Positions 9,965-43,901 of a DNA stretch of 43,901 nt are shown in pieces; position 1 is the stretch's first letter, and each line of letters opens with the position of its first letter. The notes beneath the pieces were generated by a model. The model ran no database searches. It saw only the letters and a list, made by a program, of their open reading frames with translations, and was not told the DNA's origin. The position numbers and the translations under genes are program-made. The DNA is from Candidatus Uhrbacteria bacterium (GTDB lineage Bacteria > Patescibacteriota > Patescibacteriia > UBA9934 > GWF2-40-263), in NCBI GenBank assembly GCA_903843045.1, contig CAIMOJ010000004.1, forward strand, positions 1 through 43,901, read 5' to 3'.

Positions 9965-10559
9965 GTCACTTTCTTTTTGCGGAAAAAGAAAGTGACCAAA
10001 GAAAGCCGCCGCCCGGTCTCCATGGCGGGATGGGACGTAAAACTTGGCCTCGGCTGCGGAACTCGCTAGCTGCGCCAGACGCGAACCCCTGACGCGCCGC
10101 TTCGCTCAGACAATCCTCGCCCGTGCTGATGCACCCGGCCAAGTTTTACGTCCCATCTCTCTCCGCCATTCCGACAGGGCGGGTTTTCCGGGCGGAGTTG
10201 CGAGGATTGCTTTTGGCTGAGGCCGTTTTTCCTCTCTCAACGTTTCCCCTCCTCCCTATGAGGAGGGGTCAGCCGTTCGAGGCTCTGAGGAGCCCTCAGG
10301 CTCTCGAAGAGGGGTGGTCGCCGAGCCGTAAATAAAACAAACTTCCATCCGGTCAACCGCCCTGCCGGAGCGACCCAGCCAGGGCGTGAAAAATTGGCGG
10401 GTGCATCAGCACGGGCGAGGATTGTCTGAGCGTACGAGCCCGCAGGCGAGAAGCGAGTTCCGCAGCCGAGCCAATTTTTTACGTCCTGGCGTAGGAGCGG
10501 ATGGCCGGGCGGAGAGCCTTTCTTTGGTTACTTTCTTTGTGCTCCGACAAAGAAAGTGA
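9965..10559. repeat. About 600-bp non-coding palindromic repeat region with nested inverted repeats
   Basis: Ends are GTCACTTTCTTTTT/AAAAAGAAAGTGAC-type hairpins; gggacgtaaaacttggc (10032-10048) inverted at 10138-10154; the block with ctcggctgcggaactcgc...agacaatcctcgcccgtgctgatgca recurs inverted at 10384-10490. Confidence 0.8.
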
Positions 10560-29408: not shown

Positions 29409-31016
29409 TTACGACTTAACCGCCGCCTTCGCGAAGGCGAGAAACAACGGATGCGGCTTCAACGGGGACGACTGGAATTCGGGGTGGAACTGGACGCCGA
29501 CGAAGAACGGGTGGTCCTTCAGCTCGACGATCTCGACGAGTTTTCCGTCCGGCGTCGTGCCCGCGACGACGAGGCCGGCGGCGACGAGCTGGTCGCGATA
29601 GGCGTTGTTGAACTCGTAACGGTGGCGGTGGCGCTCGGAGACGATCTCGGCGCCGTACGCCTTGCGGCTGTGCGTCCCGGCGGCGACCTTGCAGTCCCAC
29701 GAGCCGAGGCGCATCGACGCGCCATAGTCCTTCTTGAGCATCTTCTTTTCCTGGTCGGGCATCACGTGGATGACCGGATGCTTCGCCTTCGCGTCGATCT
29801 CGGTCGTGTTCGCGCCCTTCAGCCCGACGACGTTCCTTGCGAACTCGACGCACGCCAGCTGCATCCCGTAGCACAGGCCGTAGTACGGAACCTTGTTCTC
29901 GCGCGCGAACCCGATCGCCGCGATGATCCCCTCGATGCCACGGCTGCCGAATCCGCCCGGGACGACGATCCCGTCGAACCCCTTGAGACAGTCCGTCCCG
30001 TTCTTCTCAATCTCCATCGCGTCGATCCAGGTCAGCGCCGGCTTGCGGCCCACGGCCCAGCACGCGTGCTTGATCGACTCGATCACCGAGATGTACACGT
30101 CGGACAGCACGAACCCGCCGGTCGTGAAATACTTCCCGACGACCGCGATCTTCAAATCGTCCGTCGGCTTCTTGATCTTCGCCACGAGATCCTTCCACGG
30201 CTTCATGTTCGACGGCTTGGCCTTCAATCCCAATTTCTTGACAACCATGTCGCCGAGCTTCTGATCCTCGAGGATCAACGGGATCTCGTAGATGGACCCG
30301 ACGTTCGGATTCGAGATGACCGCCTCCTTCTCGACGTTGCAGAACAGCGCGATGCGCTCCTTGCGGCGGTCGTCCATCGGCTCCTCGCTTCGGCCGACCA
30401 CGAAGTCGGGCTGGATTCCCATGGAGTTCAGCATCCGGACGCTCTGCTGCACCGGCTTGGTCTTCATCTCGCCCAGGTTGCCCGGGACCGGAAGATAGGC
30501 GACGTGAATCTGCACGACGTTCTTCGGCTCGCGCATCTTGAGGATACGAGTGGCCTCGAAGAAGATCCCGTTCTGGTACTCGCCGACCGTCCCGCCAAGC
30601 TCGACGATGACGACGTCCGATCCCTTCACGGCCGCCTTGAAGCGCCGAATGATCTCGTCCGTCAGGTGCGGAATTGCCTCCACGTCCTCGCCCTCGTACT
30701 CGAACGCGCGCTCCTTTCGGATGACCTCGGCGTAGACCTGGCCAGTGGTCATGTAGTTGACGCGGTGGAGCGGGCGGCCGAGGAAGCGCTCGTAGTTGCC
30801 AAGGTCCTGGTCGCTCTCGAGCCCGTCCTCGGTCACGAACACCTCGCCGTGCTCCGACGGGCGGATGGTTCCCGCGTCGATGTTCAGGTACATGTCCACC
30901 TTCATGGCGGCCACGGAAAAGCCCTTCGACTGCAGAATGGCACCGAGCGACGCCGTGGTAATTCCCTTCCCGAGACCCGAGATGACGCCGCCCGAAACGA
31001 AGATGTACTTTGGCAT
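29409..31016 (-). CDS. pyrG: CTP synthase
   Basis: MPKYIFVSGGVISGLGKGITTASLGAILQSKG...YYGLCYGMQLACVEFARNV. Confidence 0.98.
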   Translation of the reverse strand: MPKYIFVSGGVISGLGKGITTASLGAILQSKGFSVAAMKVDMYLNIDAGTIRPSEHGEVFVTEDGLESDQDLGNYERFLGRPLHRVNYMTTGQVYAEVIRKERAFEYEGEDVEAIPHLTDEIIRRFKAAVKGSDVVIVELGGTVGEYQNGIFFEATRILKMREPKNVVQIHVAYLPVPGNLGEMKTKPVQQSVRMLNSMGIQPDFVVGRSEEPMDDRRKERIALFCNVEKEAVISNPNVGSIYEIPLILEDQKLGDMVVKKLGLKAKPSNMKPWKDLVAKIKKPTDDLKIAVVGKYFTTGGFVLSDVYISVIESIKHACWAVGRKPALTWIDAMEIEKNGTDCLKGFDGIVVPGGFGSRGIEGIIAAIGFARENKVPYYGLCYGMQLACVEFARNVVGLKGANTTEIDAKAKHPVIHVMPDQEKKMLKKDYGASMRLGSWDCKVAAGTHSRKAYGAEIVSERHRHRYEFNNAYRDQLVAAGLVVAGTTPDGKLVEIVELKDHPFFVGVQFHPEFQSSPLKPHPLFLAFAKAAVKS

Positions 31017-31718: not shown

Positions 31719-32339
31719 TTAGGCGGGCTTCGTCCACTCGACGATCTCCCCCGCGCGCCGCTCGAGCGCATCCGCCGGGCGGAGCGTCGCGATCTGGCCT
31801 CGCGACAGGATTGCCGTATGCGCAACGTTGCAGAGATGCTCGGGAACGAACCAGACCGGGTCCTCGCTGGTCATCCAGCCGCGCGCGTCGAACCGCGACA
31901 AGTCGACGGGACGCGAGAACGATCGCAGGGTCTTCTTGCCGTTCGACTGGAGGAAATACTCGTGGAAGTACGACATCGCGAGCTCACGGATCGTGCGATA
32001 GACCGGCTCGCGGTAGCGGAGGACGGCGTGGTTGGTCTTCGAGATCGCGCCCCAGTGGCCGTGTCGACGAAAGAGGGCAACGACGTGGTCCTGGTCGTCG
32101 TCGGTCGAGGTGAGGTCGAGGATCAGCGGCTTTTCGCCGGCGAGGCGCAACGCGACGGCGGCGAGCATCGCGCCCTCGATGCAGTGCGCGCGGCCATGGC
32201 GAAGGACGAGGCGCGGCGAGAAGCATGAGTCTCCGTCGGGCTCGTGGTTCTGCGGAAGCGCGTCAAGAAAATCCTGGATTTTTGCCGGGGTGTTGAGTCG
32301 TTTGAGGACGCGGAGTTCCGTTGGATCGAGCCCGTACAT
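31719..32339 (-). CDS. Transglutaminase-like domain hypothetical protein
   Basis: HGRAHCIEGAMLAAVALRLAGEKPLILDLTSTDDDQDHVVALFRRHGHWGAISKTNH; start at MYGLDPTELRVL with ggaaggag RBS. Confidence 0.7.
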   Translation of the reverse strand: MYGLDPTELRVLKRLNTPAKIQDFLDALPQNHEPDGDSCFSPRLVLRHGRAHCIEGAMLAAVALRLAGEKPLILDLTSTDDDQDHVVALFRRHGHWGAISKTNHAVLRYREPVYRTIRELAMSYFHEYFLQSNGKKTLRSFSRPVDLSRFDARGWMTSEDPVWFVPEHLCNVAHTAILSRGQIATLRPADALERRAGEIVEWTKPA

Positions 32340-32344
32340 AAAAA

Positions 32345-32360
32345 TTAACTCCTTCCCTTT
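32345..32360. other. Probable chimeric junction between two genomes
   Basis: GC-rich core-gene side ends with the RBS of the 31719 CDS; the dispersed Bacteroidetes-side repeat starts at about 32360; composition and gene content change abruptly. Confidence 0.8.
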
Positions 32361-32488
32361 GACCTTTGACTTTTGACCTTTGACAATAAGAAAAGAGCCT
32401 TTCCTGTGCAAGTGGGGAAGGTTTTTTTAATGAAAAGCTATGCACAGAGCGGAGCCGAAGTGTGAATAGCGAATAGTGAAAAATCCTC
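32360..32488. repeat. Dispersed repeat copy A
   Basis: tgacctttgacttttgacctttgacaataagaaaagagcctttcctgtgcaagtggggaaggttttttt...aaaagctatgcacagagcggagccgaagtgtgaata. Confidence 0.85.
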
Positions 32489-32617
32489 ACCCATTTAATA
32501 AAACTCCACGATGGAGGCCCCCCTCTCTTTCCTTCAAAGAGAGGGGATGGGGGTGAGTTTTTAAAGCGAAATATAAATAGATATAAGGATATTATGTAAC
32601 TTTACAGAAAAAATACC

Positions 32618-32860
32618 ATGGACTTAGAAGCCAGAAAGATCATATTTGTCCAGGAATTCCTGAGATTGCAAAACGAGGAAATCATCAGCGGGCTTGAAAA
32701 GTTGTTGCGAAAACAAAAAAACGATTTGTTTGAAAAGAAGTTGACACCTATGAGCCTTGAACAATTTAACAGAGAAATTGATCAGGCATTGTCTGATTCA
32801 GAGATGGGGAGAATTACTCCGGCTGAAGAATTGAAAAATAAGGTTCAAACATGGAGCTAG
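32618..32860 (+). CDS. Putative antitoxin of a ParDE-like module
   Basis: 80 aa, helical; start-stop overlap with ParE-like ORF. Confidence 0.6.
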   Translation: MDLEARKIIFVQEFLRLQNEEIISGLEKLLRKQKNDLFEKKLTPMSLEQFNREIDQALSDSEMGRITPAEELKNKVQTWS

Positions 32861-33177
32861 CCGTTTACTGGACTCAATTCGCCGAGGACAAACTGGAGGA
32901 TGTGTTCCTATATTATACTCAGAAAGTAAGTCTGAAACTTGCTCAGTCTCTGGCAAATGAATTAATTGACCGATCAATGGAATTAGCAAAAAATCCTTTT
33001 ATGGGTCAAAAAGAACTACTTCTTGCAGATAGAACTTAGGATTTCAGGTATTTGGTCTTCAAAAACTTCAAGATTATATATTGGGTCAATTTAAAGAGGC
33101 AAAGAATTGAAATTGTAAATCTGTTCGATTGCAGGCAGAACCCGCAGAAAATGAGCGAAATGATTGACAATGGATAA
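32851..33177 (+). pseudogene. RelE/ParE-like toxin interrupted by an in-frame TAG
   Basis: MELAVYWTQFAEDKLEDVFLYYTQKVSLKLAQSLANELIDRSMELAKNPFMGQKELLLADRT*DFRYLVFKNFKIIYWVNLKRQRIEIVNLFDCRQNPQKMSEMIDNG*. Confidence 0.75.
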
Positions 33178-33198
33178 TGGACAATGGATAATTGACAA

Positions 33199-33324
33199 TG
33201 ACCTTTGACTTTTGACCTTCGACAATAAAAAAAGAGCCTTTCCTGTGCAAGTGGGGGAGGTTTTTTTTAGTGAAAAGCTATGCACAGAGCGGAGCCGAAG
33301 TGTGAATAACGAAAAGTGAAAAGT
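33199..33324. repeat. Dispersed repeat copy B
   Basis: tgacctttgacttttgaccttcgacaataaaaaaagagcctttcctgtgcaagtgggggagg...ctatgcacagagcggagccgaagtgtgaata. Confidence 0.85.
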
Positions 33325-33350
33325 AAAGCCCGGTTGCAGATTTCGCCCTT

Positions 33351-33493
33351 TCGCCCCGTCGCCCCGTCGCCCTGTCGCCCTGTCACCCCATCGCCCCGTC
33401 GCCCCGTCGCCCCGTCGCCCCGTCGCCCCGTCGCCCCGTCGCCCCGTCGCCCCGTCGCCCCGTCGCCCCGTCACCCCATCGCCCCGTCGCCCC
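33351..33493. repeat. 8-bp tandem repeat (cgccccgt)n
   Basis: Tandem cgccccgt units with sparse c-to-t and g-to-a variants. Confidence 0.95.
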
Positions 33494-33529
33494 TCGCCTC
33501 TATGTGACCTATGTGCCTATGTGGAGTAA

Positions 33530-33632
33530 AATATAAAAAGGCTTTCCTGTGGAAACGGGGAATGTTTTTTTAGTGAAAAGCTATGCACAGAGCGGAGCCG
33601 AAGTGTGAATAACGAATAGTGAAAAGTGAAGT
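33530..33632. repeat. Dispersed repeat copy C
   Basis: aaaaggctttcctgtggaaacggggaatgtttttttagtgaaaagctatgcacagagcggagccgaagtgtgaataacgaatagtgaaaagtgaag. Confidence 0.85.
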
Positions 33633-33903
33633 TGTATTGCCTTGTCGCCTTGTCACAGCCGCGCCTGTTGCCTATGCGCCTTCAACATGCATTTATCCAC
33701 TATTTATTAACAAAATATTATTTCCGTAACAGGCTCTTTTCTATTGCATTTTTTTTTATACTTTAGCAGCCTTAAATCTTTTGGAATCTGTTGGAATCAA
33801 AAATTAAAGCTTTGGATTTCTTTTCTGACTATAACTTACCCGGAATGTTTGAAAACCATTGATGCCATTGAGTTTACAAAGACTGCCTCAGAAAGCGTAA
33901 AAC

Positions 33904-33983
33904 TACACGGTATCTTTTACACAAGTACACAGTATCTTTTGCCTGATTACACAGTATCTTTTTACTAATACACAGTATCTTAT
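33904..33983 (+). promoter_or_regulatory. Four phased direct repeats TACACAGTATCTTTT upstream of T9SS gene
   Basis: Copies start at 33904, 33926, 33948 and 33969 (22, 22, 21 bp spacing). Confidence 0.6.
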
Positions 33984-34059
33984 TTTACTAATGCTTTTTT
34001 GCCTTTTTAAGAATGATATAATAAACCCATAACACAATAACCAATAAAATCTGATTTAT

Positions 34060-37000
34060 ATGAAAAACAAATTACTCTTTACACGCAACCTGGCTTTGGT
34101 TGCTATTGTTCTTTTAATGATGATGCCTGGATTGGGATGGGGGCAAACCCAGATAGCGGCTTGGACTTTTGATGCTACGGCTGCTGCTCCCAGCACTCCA
34201 AGCAGTGTTGCTGCTAATTTAGGAGCACAATTAGGTACTGCAACTCTTTATGCTGATGGGACTAATGGATCATCCACATGGATTACTGCGACGCTTGGTA
34301 ACGAACTCACAGCATTTGCAGGTTCAACAATAAATGATCCTCGTGGGACACCATCGGCTGGACAGTCATACTGCCCAGTTGGAGGAACTGGATTTTCTGC
34401 AAATGGGAAGAGCATGGTGATTAAACTTACAATGACAGGGTTTCAGGATCCGATACTAACCTATGCCACCAGAAATACTTCTACAGGTTTTCAAACACAA
34501 ACATGGGCATGGAGCACAGATAATAGTACCTATACCACTTTTGGAACGATCACAACTATAACTACTTCTTTCGTAACTAAGACGCTTGATATGAGTAGCA
34601 TCAATTCCCTTGATCAAGCTGCTGCTGTTTATTTACGTGTCACTTTCACAGGAGCAACAAGCACATCGGGAAACAATAGATTAGATAATATTGTAATAAA
34701 TGCTACTGCTGCCAGTGCCGGCGGTCCGACTAAACTTGTAATAACCTCTATTAACGGAGGAATTTCGCCTTCAACTGGAACCCCTTTTAATGTTATGGTT
34801 CAGTCGCAGGATGCTGGTAATGCACCTGCAAATGTAGTTGCCACTACTAATTTTAGTTTGAGTTTGGTTTCCGGAACTGGTGCTTTAGGCGGAACGCTAA
34901 CCGGAAGTATTGCTGCCGGTTCAAATAGTGCAACAGTAACCGGAATCACTTATAATACAGCCGAAGCAGGGGTAAGCCTGACAGCAACCCGCACTTCAGG
35001 CGATATATTAACAGCAGGTACAAGCAGTACTTTTGCTGTTTTGGGGGCAGCTGATCATCTGGCTTTTGCAAATTTCCCTGCTGTAGGGTTTCCTGGCCAG
35101 ATAATTGCTTCCTTCACTGTTGAAGCACAACGCGCTGATAACACAGTGGATCTTAACTTTCCGGCAACTTCTGTAACCATTTCCAAGGCCAGCGGCCCTG
35201 GTACGGTTACCGGCACTCTAAGCAAATCAACAATTGCAGGTGGTGCCGCATTCAATGATATTGTAATGAGCATCAATGGAAGCTATACGGTATCGGCAAG
35301 TTGTTCTGGTCTTACAGGTGCAACTTCTGGCACAATTAACATAGTTGATCCAATGTACCAGTCGAAAGCCAGTGGCAACTGGAGTGCAAGTTCATCATGG
35401 GAAGTATATAATGGAACTGGTTGGGTAGCTGCATCTGATTATCCCAATGCTTCAAGCAAATCTGCAACCATTCTTAACTCACATGTCATTAGTGTGACTG
35501 ATAATAACGGTAAATGTTCTAACTTAACAATAAATGCTGGCGGAAAGTTGTGGAAGAATAGTCCAACTGCCGCCAGCTACCTTTACGTTTATGGCAATAT
35601 CCTGAATAACGGAACCATTGGAAGCAGCGATGGAGGTGTGACACCTTCGGCTCTCGGTTTCGATATCGAAGGAACAAACTGCCTTATTTCAGGAAGTGGA
35701 ACATTTGATGCATGGCGGATGGCAAAATTCACAACGACCAATGCAATCACTAACCTGACGATCGGACAGGATGTAACGCTTCGTAATACAGTTCCTTCTA
35801 CAGTTTACAATTCTGCTGCCTCAACAACTTTAAACATTCTAATTAATTCAGGAAAAAAACTTGCTGTTACAGGTGCAGGTATCGATTTACTAAATGTCAA
35901 CCTCACTATATCATCGGGGGCCTCACTACTGGATAATGGTACTATTACTAACCAAACTGGTGCTAATGTTACGGTAGAACGTGCTATTGCCGGTGGCGAA
36001 TGGCATTTAATTTCCGCACCGGTTTCTGATGCAGTTTCCGGATTGTTCACAGGTAAATTCCTGCAGAAAAATACTGAATCTACTAATGCATTTACTGATA
36101 TTGAGTCAGTTACCGAGGCTCTTACACCGGCAAAAGGTTTCGCGTTGTATAATGCAACAGATTTTACAGCTCAATATACAGGGACTCTGAATACGGGTGC
36201 TATTGGATCAGCTGATAATGTTACACGATCGGCAACCGGTGAGTTCTCAGGATGGAACCTTGTTGGCAACCCTTACCCATCCTCAATCGACTGGAATGCT
36301 TCATCCGGCTGGACCAAAACCAATTTAAATAATGCTACTTATATTCATTTAAATGCTTCTAATTGGGCATCCTACGTGGGTGGTGTTGGCTCTAACGGAG
36401 GCTCTCAGTTTATTGCTTCAGGCCAGGGTTTCTTTGTAAATGTAGCGAGTGTTGGAAACGGTACACTCGCAATGAATAACAATATCAGGGTACATAATGC
36501 AACTCCTTTCTATAAAAGCGCTGTAAGCAACCTTGTAAGGTTACAGGTGTCCGGCCAGGGCTTTACTGACGAAGCAATTGTGAGGTTCGCTGCCAATGCT
36601 ACAGCGGGATTTGACGGTGACTATGATGCATATAAACTTTTTGGCGATGTAGCAAAAGCAGCCCAACTCTATACGTTAGGCAGCACTCCGTTGGCTATCA
36701 ATACAATGCCCGAAACAAGCACCGTTCCTGTTGGAATTCACGTCGGCTCAAGCGGTACTTATACCATTGCTGCTACCGAAATCAACGACTTTACCAAAGT
36801 AACCCTCGAGGATACCAAAACCGCTGTGTTTACTGATTTGCTTACAACATCCTATACTTTTAGCTTTATACCGGGCGAAAACGAACAGAGATTTGTTCTG
36901 CATTTCGGACCTTTGGCAGTTAACGAAACTGAAAGTTCATCTGCCAATATTTACAGCTACCGTCAAACCGTTTATGTAAATATGAAAGATAAACAAGCAG

Positions 37001-37155
37001 GCGATATCTATATTTATAACATTGCCGGTCAGGTGATTGCTACTAAAATGTCAGCAAAGGGAATGAATGAGATAGGCCTTAATCAAACGGGTAACTATAT
37101 CGTGAAAGTGATTAGCAGGGATAATACAGTGGTTAGGAAAGTGTTTATTAACTAA
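34060..37155 (+). CDS. Large secreted surface protein with T9SS type A sorting domain
   Basis: Signal peptide MKNKLLFTRNLALVAIVLLMMMPGLGWGQ; Ig-like/adhesin-like repeats; C-terminal ADHL...VNMKDKQAGDIYIYNIAGQVIATKMSAKGMNEIGLNQTGNYIVKVISRDNTVVRKVFIN. Confidence 0.93.
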   Translation: MKNKLLFTRNLALVAIVLLMMMPGLGWGQTQIAAWTFDATAAAPSTPSSVAANLGAQLGTATLYADGTNGSSTWITATLGNELTAFAGSTINDPRGTPSAGQSYCPVGGTGFSANGKSMVIKLTMTGFQDPILTYATRNTSTGFQTQTWAWSTDNSTYTTFGTITTITTSFVTKTLDMSSINSLDQAAAVYLRVTFTGATSTSGNNRLDNIVINATAASAGGPTKLVITSINGGISPSTGTPFNVMVQSQDAGNAPANVVATTNFSLSLVSGTGALGGTLTGSIAAGSNSATVTGITYNTAEAGVSLTATRTSGDILTAGTSSTFAVLGAADHLAFANFPAVGFPGQIIASFTVEAQRADNTVDLNFPATSVTISKASGPGTVTGTLSKSTIAGGAAFNDIVMSINGSYTVSASCSGLTGATSGTINIVDPMYQSKASGNWSASSSWEVYNGTGWVAASDYPNASSKSATILNSHVISVTDNNGKCSNLTINAGGKLWKNSPTAASYLYVYGNILNNGTIGSSDGGVTPSALGFDIEGTNCLISGSGTFDAWRMAKFTTTNAITNLTIGQDVTLRNTVPSTVYNSAASTTLNILINSGKKLAVTGAGIDLLNVNLTISSGASLLDNGTITNQTGANVTVERAIAGGEWHLISAPVSDAVSGLFTGKFLQKNTESTNAFTDIESVTEALTPAKGFALYNATDFTAQYTGTLNTGAIGSADNVTRSATGEFSGWNLVGNPYPSSIDWNASSGWTKTNLNNATYIHLNASNWASYVGGVGSNGGSQFIASGQGFFVNVASVGNGTLAMNNNIRVHNATPFYKSAVSNLVRLQVSGQGFTDEAIVRFAANATAGFDGDYDAYKLFGDVAKAAQLYTLGSTPLAINTMPETSTVPVGIHVGSSGTYTIAATEINDFTKVTLEDTKTAVFTDLLTTSYTFSFIPGENEQRFVLHFGPLAVNETESSSANIYSYRQTVYVNMKDKQAGDIYIYNIAGQVIATKMSAKGMNEIGLNQTGNYIVKVISRDNTVVRKVFIN

Positions 37156-37256
37156 GAGACCAGGCGTAGGGGCGAGGGGCGATTAAACGACCCCTAATCC
37201 CTAAATCCTAATCCCCAAAACCTTTATACTTAAAACAAGATTAAACTCAAAGACAT

Positions 37257-37493
37257 ATGAAAAGAAACATAAAAATATTAGTTATTGCAGTCTTACTGTT
37301 AACAGTTCCTCTGCTGATGTTCGCTCAGCCTCATCCTAATAATGGAAATGGTGCCCCGGGCGCAGGCAACACTCCTGTTGGCGGCTCCAGCAGCGCACCC
37401 ATTGGCAATGGCACTTTTCTGTTACTCACTTTGGCGATGGCTTATGCCGGACGAAAAGTGTACGTAGTGCGCGCTAATCCTGCAGGCGAATAA
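37257..37493 (+). CDS. Small exported protein with PID-CTERM-like C-terminal sorting tail
   Basis: 78 aa: signal peptide, Gly/Pro/Asn linker, APIGNGTFLLLTLAMAYAGRKVYVVR. Confidence 0.6.
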   Translation: MKRNIKILVIAVLLLTVPLLMFAQPHPNNGNGAPGAGNTPVGGSSSAPIGNGTFLLLTLAMAYAGRKVYVVRANPAGE

Positions 37494-37524
37494 ATCGCGA
37501 ACGCCTTCACGGCTCATACAGTCT

Positions 37525-37562
37525 ACACAGTTATCCGATTAAACGGGTAACTGTGTTTTTTA
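37525..37562 (+). terminator. Intrinsic terminator
   Basis: ACACAGTTAtCCgattaaacGGgTAACTGTGTtttttat. Confidence 0.85.
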
Positions 37563-37970
37563 TTTTCGGTCATCACCAGGGCCAACTTTTTACAAATCAA
37601 ACTTATTGTGTCTGAAAAATGAACAGGAAATTTTTGCAATTCAATATAATAGCGTCAGTAGTGCTTCTGTCTCATCATAAAAACTGTTGCTGAGTTCGCT
37701 CAAAATATTTTTGCCGACAGTATAAAGACATTCAAAAAACTATATATTTGTGGCTAACATTATTTATAAGCCATTGTCACCTAATAAAGGGTTTTGGAAG
37801 CGAAAAGTGTTTATCGCAAAGCTCGCTGAGAAGGCGCAGAGAGCCGCAGAGTTCTTGTCAGGTAGCCTTCTCTGCAGAACTCTGCGTAATACTTTGCGGT
37901 TCTCTGTGGTTATTTTTTAACATTTTCTGTCAAGTAAACGACATTGATTTATCAGCTATAAATCCCACCT

Positions 37971-40900
37971 ATGCAAACCGATATCTATAAGCCTAAAAAT
38001 CATATACGCATTGTAACTGCCGCCGCATTATTCGACGGTCACGATGCAGCCATTAACATCATGCGCCGCATATTGCAGAGCACAGGAGTGGAGGTGATAC
38101 ATCTCGGGCACGACAGGCAGGTACAGGAAATTGTGGATTGCGCCATACAGGAAGATGTTCAGGCTGTGGCTATTACATCCTACCAGGGTGGGCACATGGA
38201 GTTTTTCAAATACATGCATGATTTGTTGAAGGAAAAGGGCTGTGGTCATATTAAAATTTTTGGCGGTGGGGGAGGAGTGATCCTTCCGGAGGAAATCAAT
38301 GAACTGCAACAGTATGGAATCTCGAGGATATATTCACCTGACGATGGCCGTCACCTGGGCTTGCAGGGAATGATCAACGAAGTGGTCGAATTATCCGATT
38401 TCCCGACAGGCAAAGATCTGACAATTACCAAATCCGATATACAGAAAGGCGATTATCACGCCATAGCCCAACTTATCTCTGCTGCCGAAAACCATCATTC
38501 GGAGGTTAAAAACCTACTGGCTGAACTTAAAGCAGGATGTTCGTCGGGTACAACTCCGGTTTTGGGAATAACCGGTACCGGTGGTGCAGGAAAATCCTCG
38601 CTTGTGGATGAATTGGTCAGGCGTTTCCTTTCCGATTTTCCGGATAAAACCTTAGCCATTATTTCGGTGGATCCATCGAAGCGTAAAACCGGTGGCGCGC
38701 TCCTGGGGGACCGGATCAGGATGAATGCCATCAATACCCCAAGGGTTTATATGCGTTCACTGGCTACCCGGCAGGCTAACCTGGCCCTGTCGAAACACAT
38801 ATCCGAAGCACTCTGCATTGTGAAAAATGCCGGATTCGACCTGGTGATCCTCGAAACTTCGGGGATCGGGCAATCGGATACCGAGATTGTTGATTTCTGT
38901 GATGTAAGCATGTATGTGATGACACCGGAATACGGTGCCGCCACTCAGCTTGAAAAGATCGACATGCTTGACTATGCTGATATAGTTGCCCTTAATAAGT
39001 CGGATAAACGCGGTGCGCAGGATGCATTACGCGATGTTCGCAAACAGTTTGCACGCAATCGTATGCTGTTTGCTACCGATCCTGAGAAACTGCCCGTGTT
39101 CGCTACTATGGCATCTCAGTTTAACGACCATGGTGTTAACCAGTTATACCGCGAACTCATCCATATTTTGAATGCCAAAACCAGGGCAGATTACGATTCG
39201 CAGTTTCAAATAGCAGAAGATATTGTCAGCATTGCCGGCATCATTCCGCCAAGGCGCGTCCGCTACCTGGGCGAAATTACAGAGAGCGTCCGTAACTATA
39301 ACAAATGGTCGAAGCAGCAGGCATCAGTTGCCCGCCGGCTTTACGGGCTTCACATCGCAATCGAAGAACTCAATTACCCGGAGAATACGCTGCTCACCAG
39401 CTCAACTCCTGCTCTATCAGCTGAATTAAAGAAACTTTATAAAGAAACGCAGAAACAGCTGGAACCGGCCAACCAGAAACTTATCGACACCTGGCAACAT
39501 CGTATCAAGGAACTTAAGAAAGACACTTGCACCTATATTGTCCGCAACAAAGAGGTGAAAGTGCAAACGTTTACAGAATCGATGTCGCACTTGCGCATTC
39601 CCAAAATAGCAATGCCGCGTTACAACGACTGGGGCGATATACTCGAATGGTGCCTGCGCGAAAATGTGCCGGGTGAATTTCCTTACGCTGCCGGGCTTTA
39701 TCCTTTTAAACGCGAAAACGAAGACCCCACACGTATGTTTGCCGGCGAAGGCGGACCCGAGCGCACCAATAAGCGCTTTCATTATGTTTCCTTCGGCATG
39801 CCTGCCAAACGGCTTTCCACCGCTTTCGACTCAGTTACACTTTACGGTGCCGATCCCGGCTTACGGCCTGATATTTACGGCAAAATTGGCAATGCCGGTG
39901 TTTCTGTAGCCTGCCTCGATGATGCCAAAAAACTCTATTCAGGTTTTAATCTGTGCGACCCGGCAACTTCCGTTTCAATGACCATCAACGGACCGGCTCC
40001 CGCCATGCTTGGTTTTTTTATGAATACCGCCATCGACCAGCAGTGTGAATTGTATATACATAAAAACGGGCTCGAAGAGGAAACCGAAAAGAAGATAAAA
40101 GCTATTTTCCGGAAACATGGCTCAAAACGGCCTGATTACCAGGGGGATTTACCGGAAGGGAATAACGGATTGGGTTTGATGTTGCTCGGCATTACCGGCG
40201 ACCAGGTGCTTCCGGCAGAGGTTTACACTAAGATTAAAACCGAAACCATTGCCAATGTCCGAGGTACGGTACAGGCTGATATACTGAAAGAAGACCAGGC
40301 CCAGAATACCTGTATTTTCAGCACCGATTTTGCACTCAGGCTGATGGGCGATGTGCAGCAGTATTTTATCGAGAATAACGTGAGGAACTTTTACTCGGTT
40401 TCTATTTCGGGTTACCATATTGCCGAAGCCGGTGCCAACCCGATTACCCAGCTTGCTTTTACCCTGGCAAACGGTTTCACTTACGTTGAATATTACGCCT
40501 CGCGCGGAATGGACATCGATAAATTTGCGCCTAACCTCTCCTTTTTCTTTTCCAACGGCATTGATCCCGAATATTCGGTATTGGGCAGGGTGGCACGACT
40601 GATTTGGGCCAAGGCTATGAAAGGTCTATACAAAGCGGGGCCTCGCTCGCAGATGCTCAAATACCACATACAAACCTCAGGGCGTTCGCTTCATGCGCAG
40701 GAAATTGATTTCAACGATATACGCACTACGCTCCAGGCACTTTATGCAGTTTACGACAACTGCAATTCGCTGCATACCAATGCTTACGATGAGGCCATCA
40801 CAACTCCGACCGAGGAGTCCGTTCGCCGGGCTATTGCCATACAAATGATTATCAACAACGAACTGGGGCTTACCAAAAACCAGAATCCACTTCAGGGCTC

Positions 40901-41360
40901 ATTTATTATAGAAGAACTGACCGACCTGGTTGAAGAAGCCGTATTAGCCGAATTTGATCGGATAAATGAGCGCGGAGGTGTATTGGGAGCCATGGAAACC
41001 ATGTACCAGCGTGGAAAGATCCAGGAAGAGTCGCTCTATTACGAACATCTTAAGCATACCGGCGAACTGCCGATCATGGGCGTAAATACTTTCCTTTCGA
41101 GCAAGGGATCGCCGACTGTAATTCCGAAACAGGTAATACGTGCCACCAAAGCCGAGCAGGAATACCAGATTGCCATGTTGCAGCAGTTGCACAACACCTG
41201 GCAGGACGAATCACGCGAGTGTCTGTTGCATTTACGCGAACAGGCACTGCATGGCGGTAACCTTTTCGAAAGCCTGATCGAAGCAACCAAATATTGCTCG
41301 TTAGGACAGATAACTCAGTCGTTGTTTGAAGTTGGAGGACAGTACAGGAGGAATATGTAG
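37971..41360 (+). CDS. icmF: Fused isobutyryl-CoA mutase / methylmalonyl-CoA mutase family protein with internal MeaI-like G3E GTPase
   Basis: N-terminal B12-binding ([34 protein letters not shown]), GTPase [22 protein letters not shown]-terminal mutase barrel. Confidence 0.93.
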
Positions 41361-41384
41361 CCTTTTCGCGGATATTACGATTAT

Positions 41385-41415
41385 AAAAAAAGCAGGCCTT
41401 GTAGCCTGCTTTTTT
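41385..41415. terminator. Bidirectional terminator
   Basis: aaaaaaAGCAGGCcttgtaGCCTGCTtttttc. Confidence 0.85.
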
Positions 41416-41452
41416 CAATTGATATTGGTTGGTTGAACTGGGTAATCAGGTT

Positions 41453-43141
41453 TTAGTTTACAAATTGCTCTGCATAATATTTAGCGGTAAGCTTTTCGCC
41501 TGTGGCTTTCTCAATCATTTCGTTCCAGCTGTAACGGGCACCGGGTTTAAATACATTTTCCTTCAGGTAGTCGCCAACCTCTTTTTTACCAAAGTAGCTC
41601 TGTCCGAAATCGGACGATTTCAGAACAGTAGATGCTATGTAATGATTAAATTGTGATGCCAGCAACTCACCGAGCAGGTAGTTATGGTAGTAACAGGGCG
41701 AAGTGGCAATATGAATTTTGCTTGCCCAATCAGGCAGGTTGCGGTTTGCAGGTCTTTTTATCATCTGGTATTTTTCTACGAGATCCCACCATAATTTATT
41801 CAGGTCCTGGTCAGGGTTGGCGTACAAAGCTTGCTCGAAACGGTACATTACCTGTGCCCAGCGACTAAATGTAAGTTGTTCCAGGCAAAGAACTTTAAAG
41901 CTTTCGGTAGCAACTTTGCGGGCATCGGTAGTGTCGGTGAGTTTCATATCAACCAGAAACCCTGCATTAGCAGCCATACGTCCGAAAAACATGGCAATCG
42001 CTTCGGTTGTAAAAGTATGCGCAGGGTTGCGAAGAGCAAACGGGAGCTGACCATCAATGTATTTATCGTAATTCGCGTGGCCAAATTCGTGCAACATGGT
42101 ACCCATCCAGCTGTAATTGGGTTTGATATTGCACAGAACCCTTACATCTCCATGGTTATCAATATCGATACAATAGGCATGCTGATTTTTGCCTGGTTTT
42201 TCGTAAAGGTCACTCTTTGCAATCATATCGCTGATATCCAGGTCGATACTGGAATAATAATCAGTGGTAAGTGTTTCAATATTCTTGCCTTTATAGTATT
42301 TGTCGAGGTCAACGCTGTAAATGGCAGGTGCTTCCTGAAAAAAGCGGTTTTGATAATGCCAGGGCATCAGGTTTTCGGCTTTAACATTATCACGTTTCGA
42401 GAGATAGGTGTCAATTTCGCCTTTCAGACCTGTAAATGCATCGCGGGTCAGGTTATCGAGTTCGTCGAATAGCTTGCTGATTTCTTCCGGATCCTGCTCG
42501 CTCAGTTTCAGGCTCATGGAATGATAATTGTCGAAGCCCAGTTGTTTGGCTATCTCATTGCGTTTTTTTACCAGGTTGATAATATCCTGTGCCACAACGG
42601 GTCCAATGGCTTTGTGCCCTTCCCATGCCTGTTGCAGTTCTGCAGAATTTGTGGAGGTTTTCAATACGTCCTCTACATCGTTATCACTGAGTTTTTTACC
42701 ATTTACATCAGCACGGAAATTCGAATATTTCTTCTCCACTTCCGTTTGCATTTTGATGGCACTGTTCAGCAGGGAGGTATCGACCTGGTTTCCCAGGTAA
42801 CTATTGTACATCACTTCAAGTTGGCGTTTCAATAGCTCATCGGTGATGGCATCCGATTCTTTAATTTTTTTGAGAATAGCAAAATCCTCTTTATTCGAAA
42901 ACACTTTCGTGAGTTCAATGTTAAGATCTTCCGATTTTTTCCAATCCTCGTCCTTCCCGCTCAGGGAAGCATTCCAGTAAGCCAGCGAAGCTTCTTTGGT
43001 TAGCGGCTGAACAATTGAATCGAATCGTTCAATAAATGAAAGCAGTTGTTTTTTCATGTGCGGTTTGTTATTTTTACATCCATCAAAAGCAATTACCGAA
43101 AGCAATGCCATTAACAGGATAATACGTTTAAATGTTTTCAT
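41453..43141 (-). CDS. M2-like (ACE-type) dipeptidyl carboxypeptidase lipoprotein
   Basis: Lipobox IAFDGCKNN; MGTMLHEFGHANYDKYIDGQLPFALRNPAHTFTTEAIAMFFGR. Confidence 0.85.
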   Translation of the reverse strand: MKTFKRIILLMALLSVIAFDGCKNNKPHMKKQLLSFIERFDSIVQPLTKEASLAYWNASLSGKDEDWKKSEDLNIELTKVFSNKEDFAILKKIKESDAITDELLKRQLEVMYNSYLGNQVDTSLLNSAIKMQTEVEKKYSNFRADVNGKKLSDNDVEDVLKTSTNSAELQQAWEGHKAIGPVVAQDIINLVKKRNEIAKQLGFDNYHSMSLKLSEQDPEEISKLFDELDNLTRDAFTGLKGEIDTYLSKRDNVKAENLMPWHYQNRFFQEAPAIYSVDLDKYYKGKNIETLTTDYYSSIDLDISDMIAKSDLYEKPGKNQHAYCIDIDNHGDVRVLCNIKPNYSWMGTMLHEFGHANYDKYIDGQLPFALRNPAHTFTTEAIAMFFGRMAANAGFLVDMKLTDTTDARKVATESFKVLCLEQLTFSRWAQVMYRFEQALYANPDQDLNKLWWDLVEKYQMIKRPANRNLPDWASKIHIATSPCYYHNYLLGELLASQFNHYIASTVLKSSDFGQSYFGKKEVGDYLKENVFKPGARYSWNEMIEKATGEKLTAKYYAEQFVN

Positions 43142-43275
43142 AATTCAAAGTTTAAGGTTCAAAGATCAAGGTTCAAAATTCAAAATTTAAAGTTCAAGGT
43201 TCAAGGTTCAAAGTTCAAAAACCGGACACTGAGTAAAGCCAAAATTCAAGGTTCAAAGTTCAAAAACCGGATACT
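43142..43275. repeat. Degenerate tandem aaggttcaa/aagttcaa repeats with ccggA(c/t)actg...aagcc motifs
   Basis: attcaaagtttaaggttcaaagatcaaggttcaaaattc... Confidence 0.8.
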
Positions 43276-43367
43276 GTGCGAAGCCGAAGTGCACGGTTGT
43301 ACACCAAACTGGCACATTTCCTAATTAACGCATTAGCACATTAGCACATTAACACATTATCGCATTA

Positions 43368-43901
43368 TCACATTTCCAGTTCCCATGAAGCGCCTTCCTT
43401 AGTATCCTTAATGGTGACTCCGGCCTGTGCCAGGGTGTCCCTCAGGCGATCGCTGGTAGCCCAGTCTTTATTGGTGCGGGCTTCACGGCGCAGATCCAGG
43501 ATAATATTCATCAGGTTGCTTATTACCTGGTTACCGGCTTGCGGGTCATTTTCAGGAAGCAGTCCCAGGATGTCGAAAGTAAATGTATGCATCGTTGTAC
43601 GAAGCAATCCTATATCGACAGCGGTCAGGCTTTCCTTTTTATCATGAGCCGAGTTAATGATTCGTGCGGCATCAAAAAGATGAGCAATCAGTATAGGGCT
43701 GTTGAGGTCATCGTTCATGGCCTCGTAGCATTTTGACTGCAAAACTGCGATATCCACAGTTGAGAGGTTTGCCGGAACCAGTTTTTCGATGGTAGCAATG
43801 CTTTTCATCAATCGCTGGAATCCTTTTTCGGAAGCCTGCAAGGCTTCGTTGCTGAAATCGAGCGGGCTGCGGTAGTGAGCCTGGAGGATGAAAAAACGCA
43901 C
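43368..43901 (-). CDS. cysS: Cysteinyl-tRNA synthetase, C-terminal part (truncated at window edge)
   Basis: FFILQAHYRSPLDFSNEALQASEKGFQRL...MNDDLNSPILIAHLFDAARIIN...DWATSDRLRDTLAQAGVTIKDTKEGASWE. Confidence 0.92.
   Translation of the reverse strand: MRFFILQAHYRSPLDFSNEALQASEKGFQRLMKSIATIEKLVPANLSTVDIAVLQSKCYEAMNDDLNSPILIAHLFDAARIINSAHDKKESLTAVDIGLLRTTMHTFTFDILGLLPENDPQAGNQVISNLMNIILDLRREARTNKDWATSDRLRDTLAQAGVTIKDTKEGASWELEM

Follow-up and report, generated by a model that had tools for sequence, protein, structure and literature searches.

The window, by which we mean the whole stretch of 43,901 nucleotides analyzed here, is almost certainly an inter-genome chimeric contig, judging from the sequence comparisons presented below, and its junction an assembly artefact with no biology behind it. 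It forms the entire contig C4 of the genome bin G000 (1,275,865 bp in 76 contigs, completeness 96.3%, contamination 0.99%), and its parts can be assigned to two different genomes, the left one on the basis of the composition of the bin and the right one on that of its 98.7–100% identity to the contigs of a Bacteroidales MAG, G111. The GC content changes in a single step in the window, from 0.616 over positions 1–32332 to 0.443 over positions 32385–43901, and the tetranucleotide correlation with the remainder of the bin is 0.994 in the left half and -0.16 in the right half. The idea that low GC alone proves a foreign origin was rejected, with low-GC islands containing recombinase-like ORFs found on three other contigs of the bin (C46:67818–79122, C15:7350–15414, and C64:6177–9532). 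These islands are situated within native contigs, and their ORFs, the translations of which were read by eye, are tyrosine or serine recombinase-like, DnaK-like, DNA methyltransferase-like, or of the phage-type primase kind; they probably represent genuine mobile elements belonging to the host. The bin also contains a dispersed GC-rich repeat of 55–125 bp (CGTGAAAAATTGGCGGGTGCATCAGCACGGGCGAGG...), located at positions 10385–10480 of the window and on contigs C1, C13, C17, C30, C46, and C51, several copies of which are exact, as well as a second dispersed family of about 60 bp (GCGGGGTTGCGAATAACGAATTAGTTACTTATTACACATATG) on contigs C24, C26, C40, and C45.

The left half fits a reduced candidate-phylum lineage, as suggested by the genome sizes of the sampled class-mates of the bin, which are all in the 0.5–1.6 Mb range. 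Homologues of its last native gene, encoding a 206-aa protein, were identified in 4/4 congeners, with 73–92% identity. The junction end of the left half, read on the minus strand (AAGGAGTTAATTTTTATG), carries an RBS (AAGGAG) and the start codon ATG at position 32339. The 52-mer including this start (X in Table 1) recurs exactly at a single other site in the bin, located on contig C47, and the agreement between the two contigs extends to base 32384 of the window. To the right of the 52-mer, C47 carries a minus-strand membrane-protein gene (C47:2631–3230), the stop codon of which is inside the 52-mer, 5 bp ahead of the ATG of the 206-aa gene. The counterparts of both genes adjoin in three congeners (G001, G003, and G004), where their order and orientation are kept. 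In the fourth one (G002), the membrane-protein gene gave no homologue, and the homologue of the 206-aa gene occurs directly after a gene resembling the next gene on C47 (VKOR-like by eye). The gene order in the congeners argues for the native order window-left, 52-bp spacer, C47-right, and the left half thus truly continues on C47. The converse reading, in which the contaminant would be the left half and the native sequence the right one, has a practically negligible probability: no evidence supporting it was found, the left half fits the composition of the bin and ends with a gene present in all the congeners, and the right half misfits the bin.

The right half (32.385–43.9 kb, about 11.5 kb) can be identified from its matches as a piece of the genome of a lake Bacteroidales organism. 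Nearly all of it (33564–42895 and 43781–43901) has its counterpart in G111, a MAG of 4.6 Mb which comes from the family of one of the lake Bacteroidales MAGs matched by IcmF: the identity amounts to 98.7% over positions 33564–37368, 99.8% over positions 36612–42895 (6284 bp), and 100% over positions 43781–43901. The IcmF sequence shows 88–89% amino acid identity to lake Bacteroidales MAGs, and the order cysS then metallopeptidase is common to the window and its Bacteroidales relatives. Positions 32385–33563 have no collinear match in G111, where only the repeats of this segment were found; contig G111:C76 begins at the point corresponding to 33564, and the continuation of the donor leftward of this point was not found in G111. 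In the same segment, the ParE-like toxin ORF (32851–33039) shows an early in-frame TAG, behind which the remainder of the frame continues, and its Pfam match is weak (20.2 bits, under the gathering score). Since the bin holds a complete cysS gene of its own (C60:1766–3166, 437 bits), the fragment of cysS in the window is an alien second copy. The existence of a further chimera between icmF and the peptidase gene, suspected from the fact that the best IcmF relatives have no peptidase adjoining IcmF, was rejected, as contig G111:C452 spans the gap at 99.8%. In the 36711–37368 region, G111:C76 diverges from the window and G111:C452 does not, and the Bacteroidales population therefore seems to have variants in this region. 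The first-pass annotation had proposed an assembly chimera between a GC-rich candidate-phylum genome and a Bacteroidetes genome, with GC content, codon usage, and gene content (T9SS, icmF, and cysS, all of which gave family matches here) changing at once, and had suggested comparing tetranucleotides. The results obtained on both halves agree with this proposal; its assignment of the right half can be narrowed to Bacteroidales, while that of the left half holds in outline.

Table 1. Coordinates of the features of the window; assignments to a native or foreign (alien) origin are those deduced from the sequence.
Feature	Position	Strand	Evidence or remarks
Native part of the GC-rich bin G000	1–32357		GC 0.616, tetranucleotide correlation 0.994
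CTP synthase	29412–31016		Example gene of the native left part
206-aa conserved gene with which the native left half ends	31722–32339	-	Without Pfam or NCBIfam match
Native intergenic spacer X, 52 bp	32333–32384		Gene start, RBS, (TTTGACC)n heptad array; exact copy G000:C47:2616–2667
Crossover interval (27 bp matching both genomes)	32358–32384		C47 identity ends at 32384; G111:C212 identity starts at 32358
Dispersed Bacteroidales element, copy 1 (heptad array + agagcctttcctgtgcaag... block)	32358–32482	+	Further copies in the window and G111:C212
Small antitoxin-like ORF and ParE-like toxin ORF with in-frame stop, alien	32618–33039	+	Pfam ParE_toxin
T9SS type A sorting-domain protein, alien	34060–37155	+	TIGR04183, 27.3 bits (cut-off 23); G111:C76 98.7%
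IcmF, fused isobutyryl-CoA mutase/GTPase, alien	37971–41360	+	NF045497, 1753 bits; G111:C452 99.8%
M2/M3-like metallopeptidase, alien	41453–43141	-	PF01401, 101 bits
cysS, C-terminal 177 aa, cut by the contig end, alien	43368–43901	-	TIGR00435, 81 bits

Sequence common to both genomes is present at the breakpoint. The repeat tgacctttgacttttgacc occurs just past the RBS at the end of the left half, with a longer element behind it, a copy of which on contig G111:C212 matches the window at 95.2% over 125 bp. Since the native identity reaches position 32384 and the homology with this Bacteroidales element starts at 32358, the crossover lies between these two positions, where the native and Bacteroidales matches overlap over 27 bp consisting of the (TTTGACC)n array. 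The other copies of the element in the window are located at positions 33199–33322 (94%) and 33535–33625 (91%, heptad array absent), in line with the recurrences previously noted at 33199 and partly at 33530. The left side does end with the RBS of a GC-rich minus-strand gene, as had been stated, but the junction, which had been placed at 32345–32360, has to be moved about 20 bp to the right because the RBS and the array still belong to the native sequence of the GC-rich genome, the spacer of which extends up to 32384 according to C47.

The (TTTGACC)n array is native to both genomes. Heptad arrays occur elsewhere in the host lineage (in G000, at C46:163478, and in G003:C3). In Bacteroidales, heptad sites were counted with at most one mismatch, using the reversed pattern as a control: 27 sites versus 0 were obtained in G097, and 3 versus 8 in G111, a count which carries no weight. 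Since the latter count is not above the control, the presence of the heptads in G111 rests on the aligned copy of the element on C212. Tandem tcgccccg units are also present in the Bacteroidales part of the window (33350–33495), as well as beside the dispersed element in G111:C212.

These data are best explained by the following process. The GC-rich genome carries, between two neighboring minus-strand genes, a 52-bp spacer containing (TTTGACC)n, and the Bacteroidales genome, presumably in the same sample, has this array too, where it forms an end of a dispersed element; a short-read assembler with a MEGAHIT signature would have met words common to both arrays and switched genomes within the 27-bp interval. 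Many contigs of the bin show exact 141-bp end overlaps, which are known to be the trace of MEGAHIT with a maxK of 141 (PMC10914622). The possibility that the 52-bp overlap might be the final k-mer overlap of the assembler was rejected, as the overlaps seen in this bin are 141 bp long. Since the common stretch of 27 bases is longer than the smallest word of the MEGAHIT k-lists, which is 21 (PMC10914622), the switch is likely to have been made in an early small-k round or during local assembly. Some of the MAGs among the close IcmF relatives have names fitting a stratified-lake dataset, which was assembled with MEGAHIT (PMC8121793); it might be guessed that G000 comes from this dataset too, and we infer that both organisms were present in one sample. 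In one benchmark, the number of chimeric contigs per genome was found to be 22.15 with MEGAHIT versus 2.63 with SPAdes (PMC11261854).

C47 is also chimeric, a third genome being joined at the other side of the spacer. Positions 1–2615 of this contig are foreign, their composition being unlike both that of the bin and that of the Bacteroidales piece, and they encode an LRR protein of the BspA type together with a tail-specific protease which is broken off at the 52-mer; the style of these proteins gives the impression of a Verrucomicrobiota-like donor. The heptad array does not account for this second join. The layout window-left, X, Bacteroidales DNA, third-genome piece, X, C47-right might also be that expected if DNA of Bacteroidales origin had really been inserted into the spacer, X being duplicated at both ends as an att site or a target-site duplication, and this geometry does fit, since the two copies of X are in direct orientation and alien DNA abuts X on either side. 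We nevertheless consider such an insertion very improbable, and attach equally little credence to its fuller form, in which a reduced GC-rich genome would recently have received 14 kb or more of chromosomal DNA from Bacteroidales and other bacteria, flanked by 52-bp direct repeats made from the heptad spacer. The family matches to the main ORFs of 32385–43901 include no integrase, recombinase, or transposase, and the right half is made up of chromosomal genes of Bacteroidales that are collinear with the contigs of the 4.6-Mb MAG at the high identities given above. The two alien pieces differ in their composition and gene type, so that two unrelated donors would be needed, and the protease on C47 ends at X. 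Host DNA on both sides of an insert was not found, the alien DNA reaching the contig end, whereas the low-GC islands on the other contigs of the bin have recombinase-like ORFs and sit inside native contigs.

That a segment of a Bacteroidales chromosome reached the GC-rich genome by natural horizontal transfer, without any involvement of repeats, is extremely improbable. The sharp change in composition, taken alone, could mean that a recent transfer has occurred, and the islands on C15, C46, and C64 are in keeping with this idea, but neither the 52-mer common to C47, nor the fact that C47 supplies the neighbor gene present in the congeners, nor the near-identity of the right half to the contigs of G111 would be explained in this way.

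The assembly artefact calls for a correction to the genome bin: about 11.5 kb of its 1.28 Mb, along with 2.6 kb of C47, are foreign. Because of this, the T9SS protein, IcmF (involved in B12-dependent acyl-CoA metabolism), the metallopeptidase, and the second cysS should not be attributed to the host. Joins of this kind are present even in a bin of 96% completeness and 0.99% contamination.

Short tandem heptanucleotide arrays with 7-bp units occur in bacterial spacers, including those of cyanobacteria. The TTTGACC array may be compared with these by its 7-bp unit, its intergenic location, and its tandem arrangement, whereas its unit and its hosts are unlike those of the cyanobacterial examples. 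As regards the junction itself, the window resembles MEGAHIT-type inter-genome misassemblies in that it has parts from two genomes, a short repeat at the join, and 141-bp overlaps between the contigs of its bin. It does not differ from them in kind: it is an ordinary assembly artefact, in which the breakpoint has been placed within 27 bp and both true partners have been identified.
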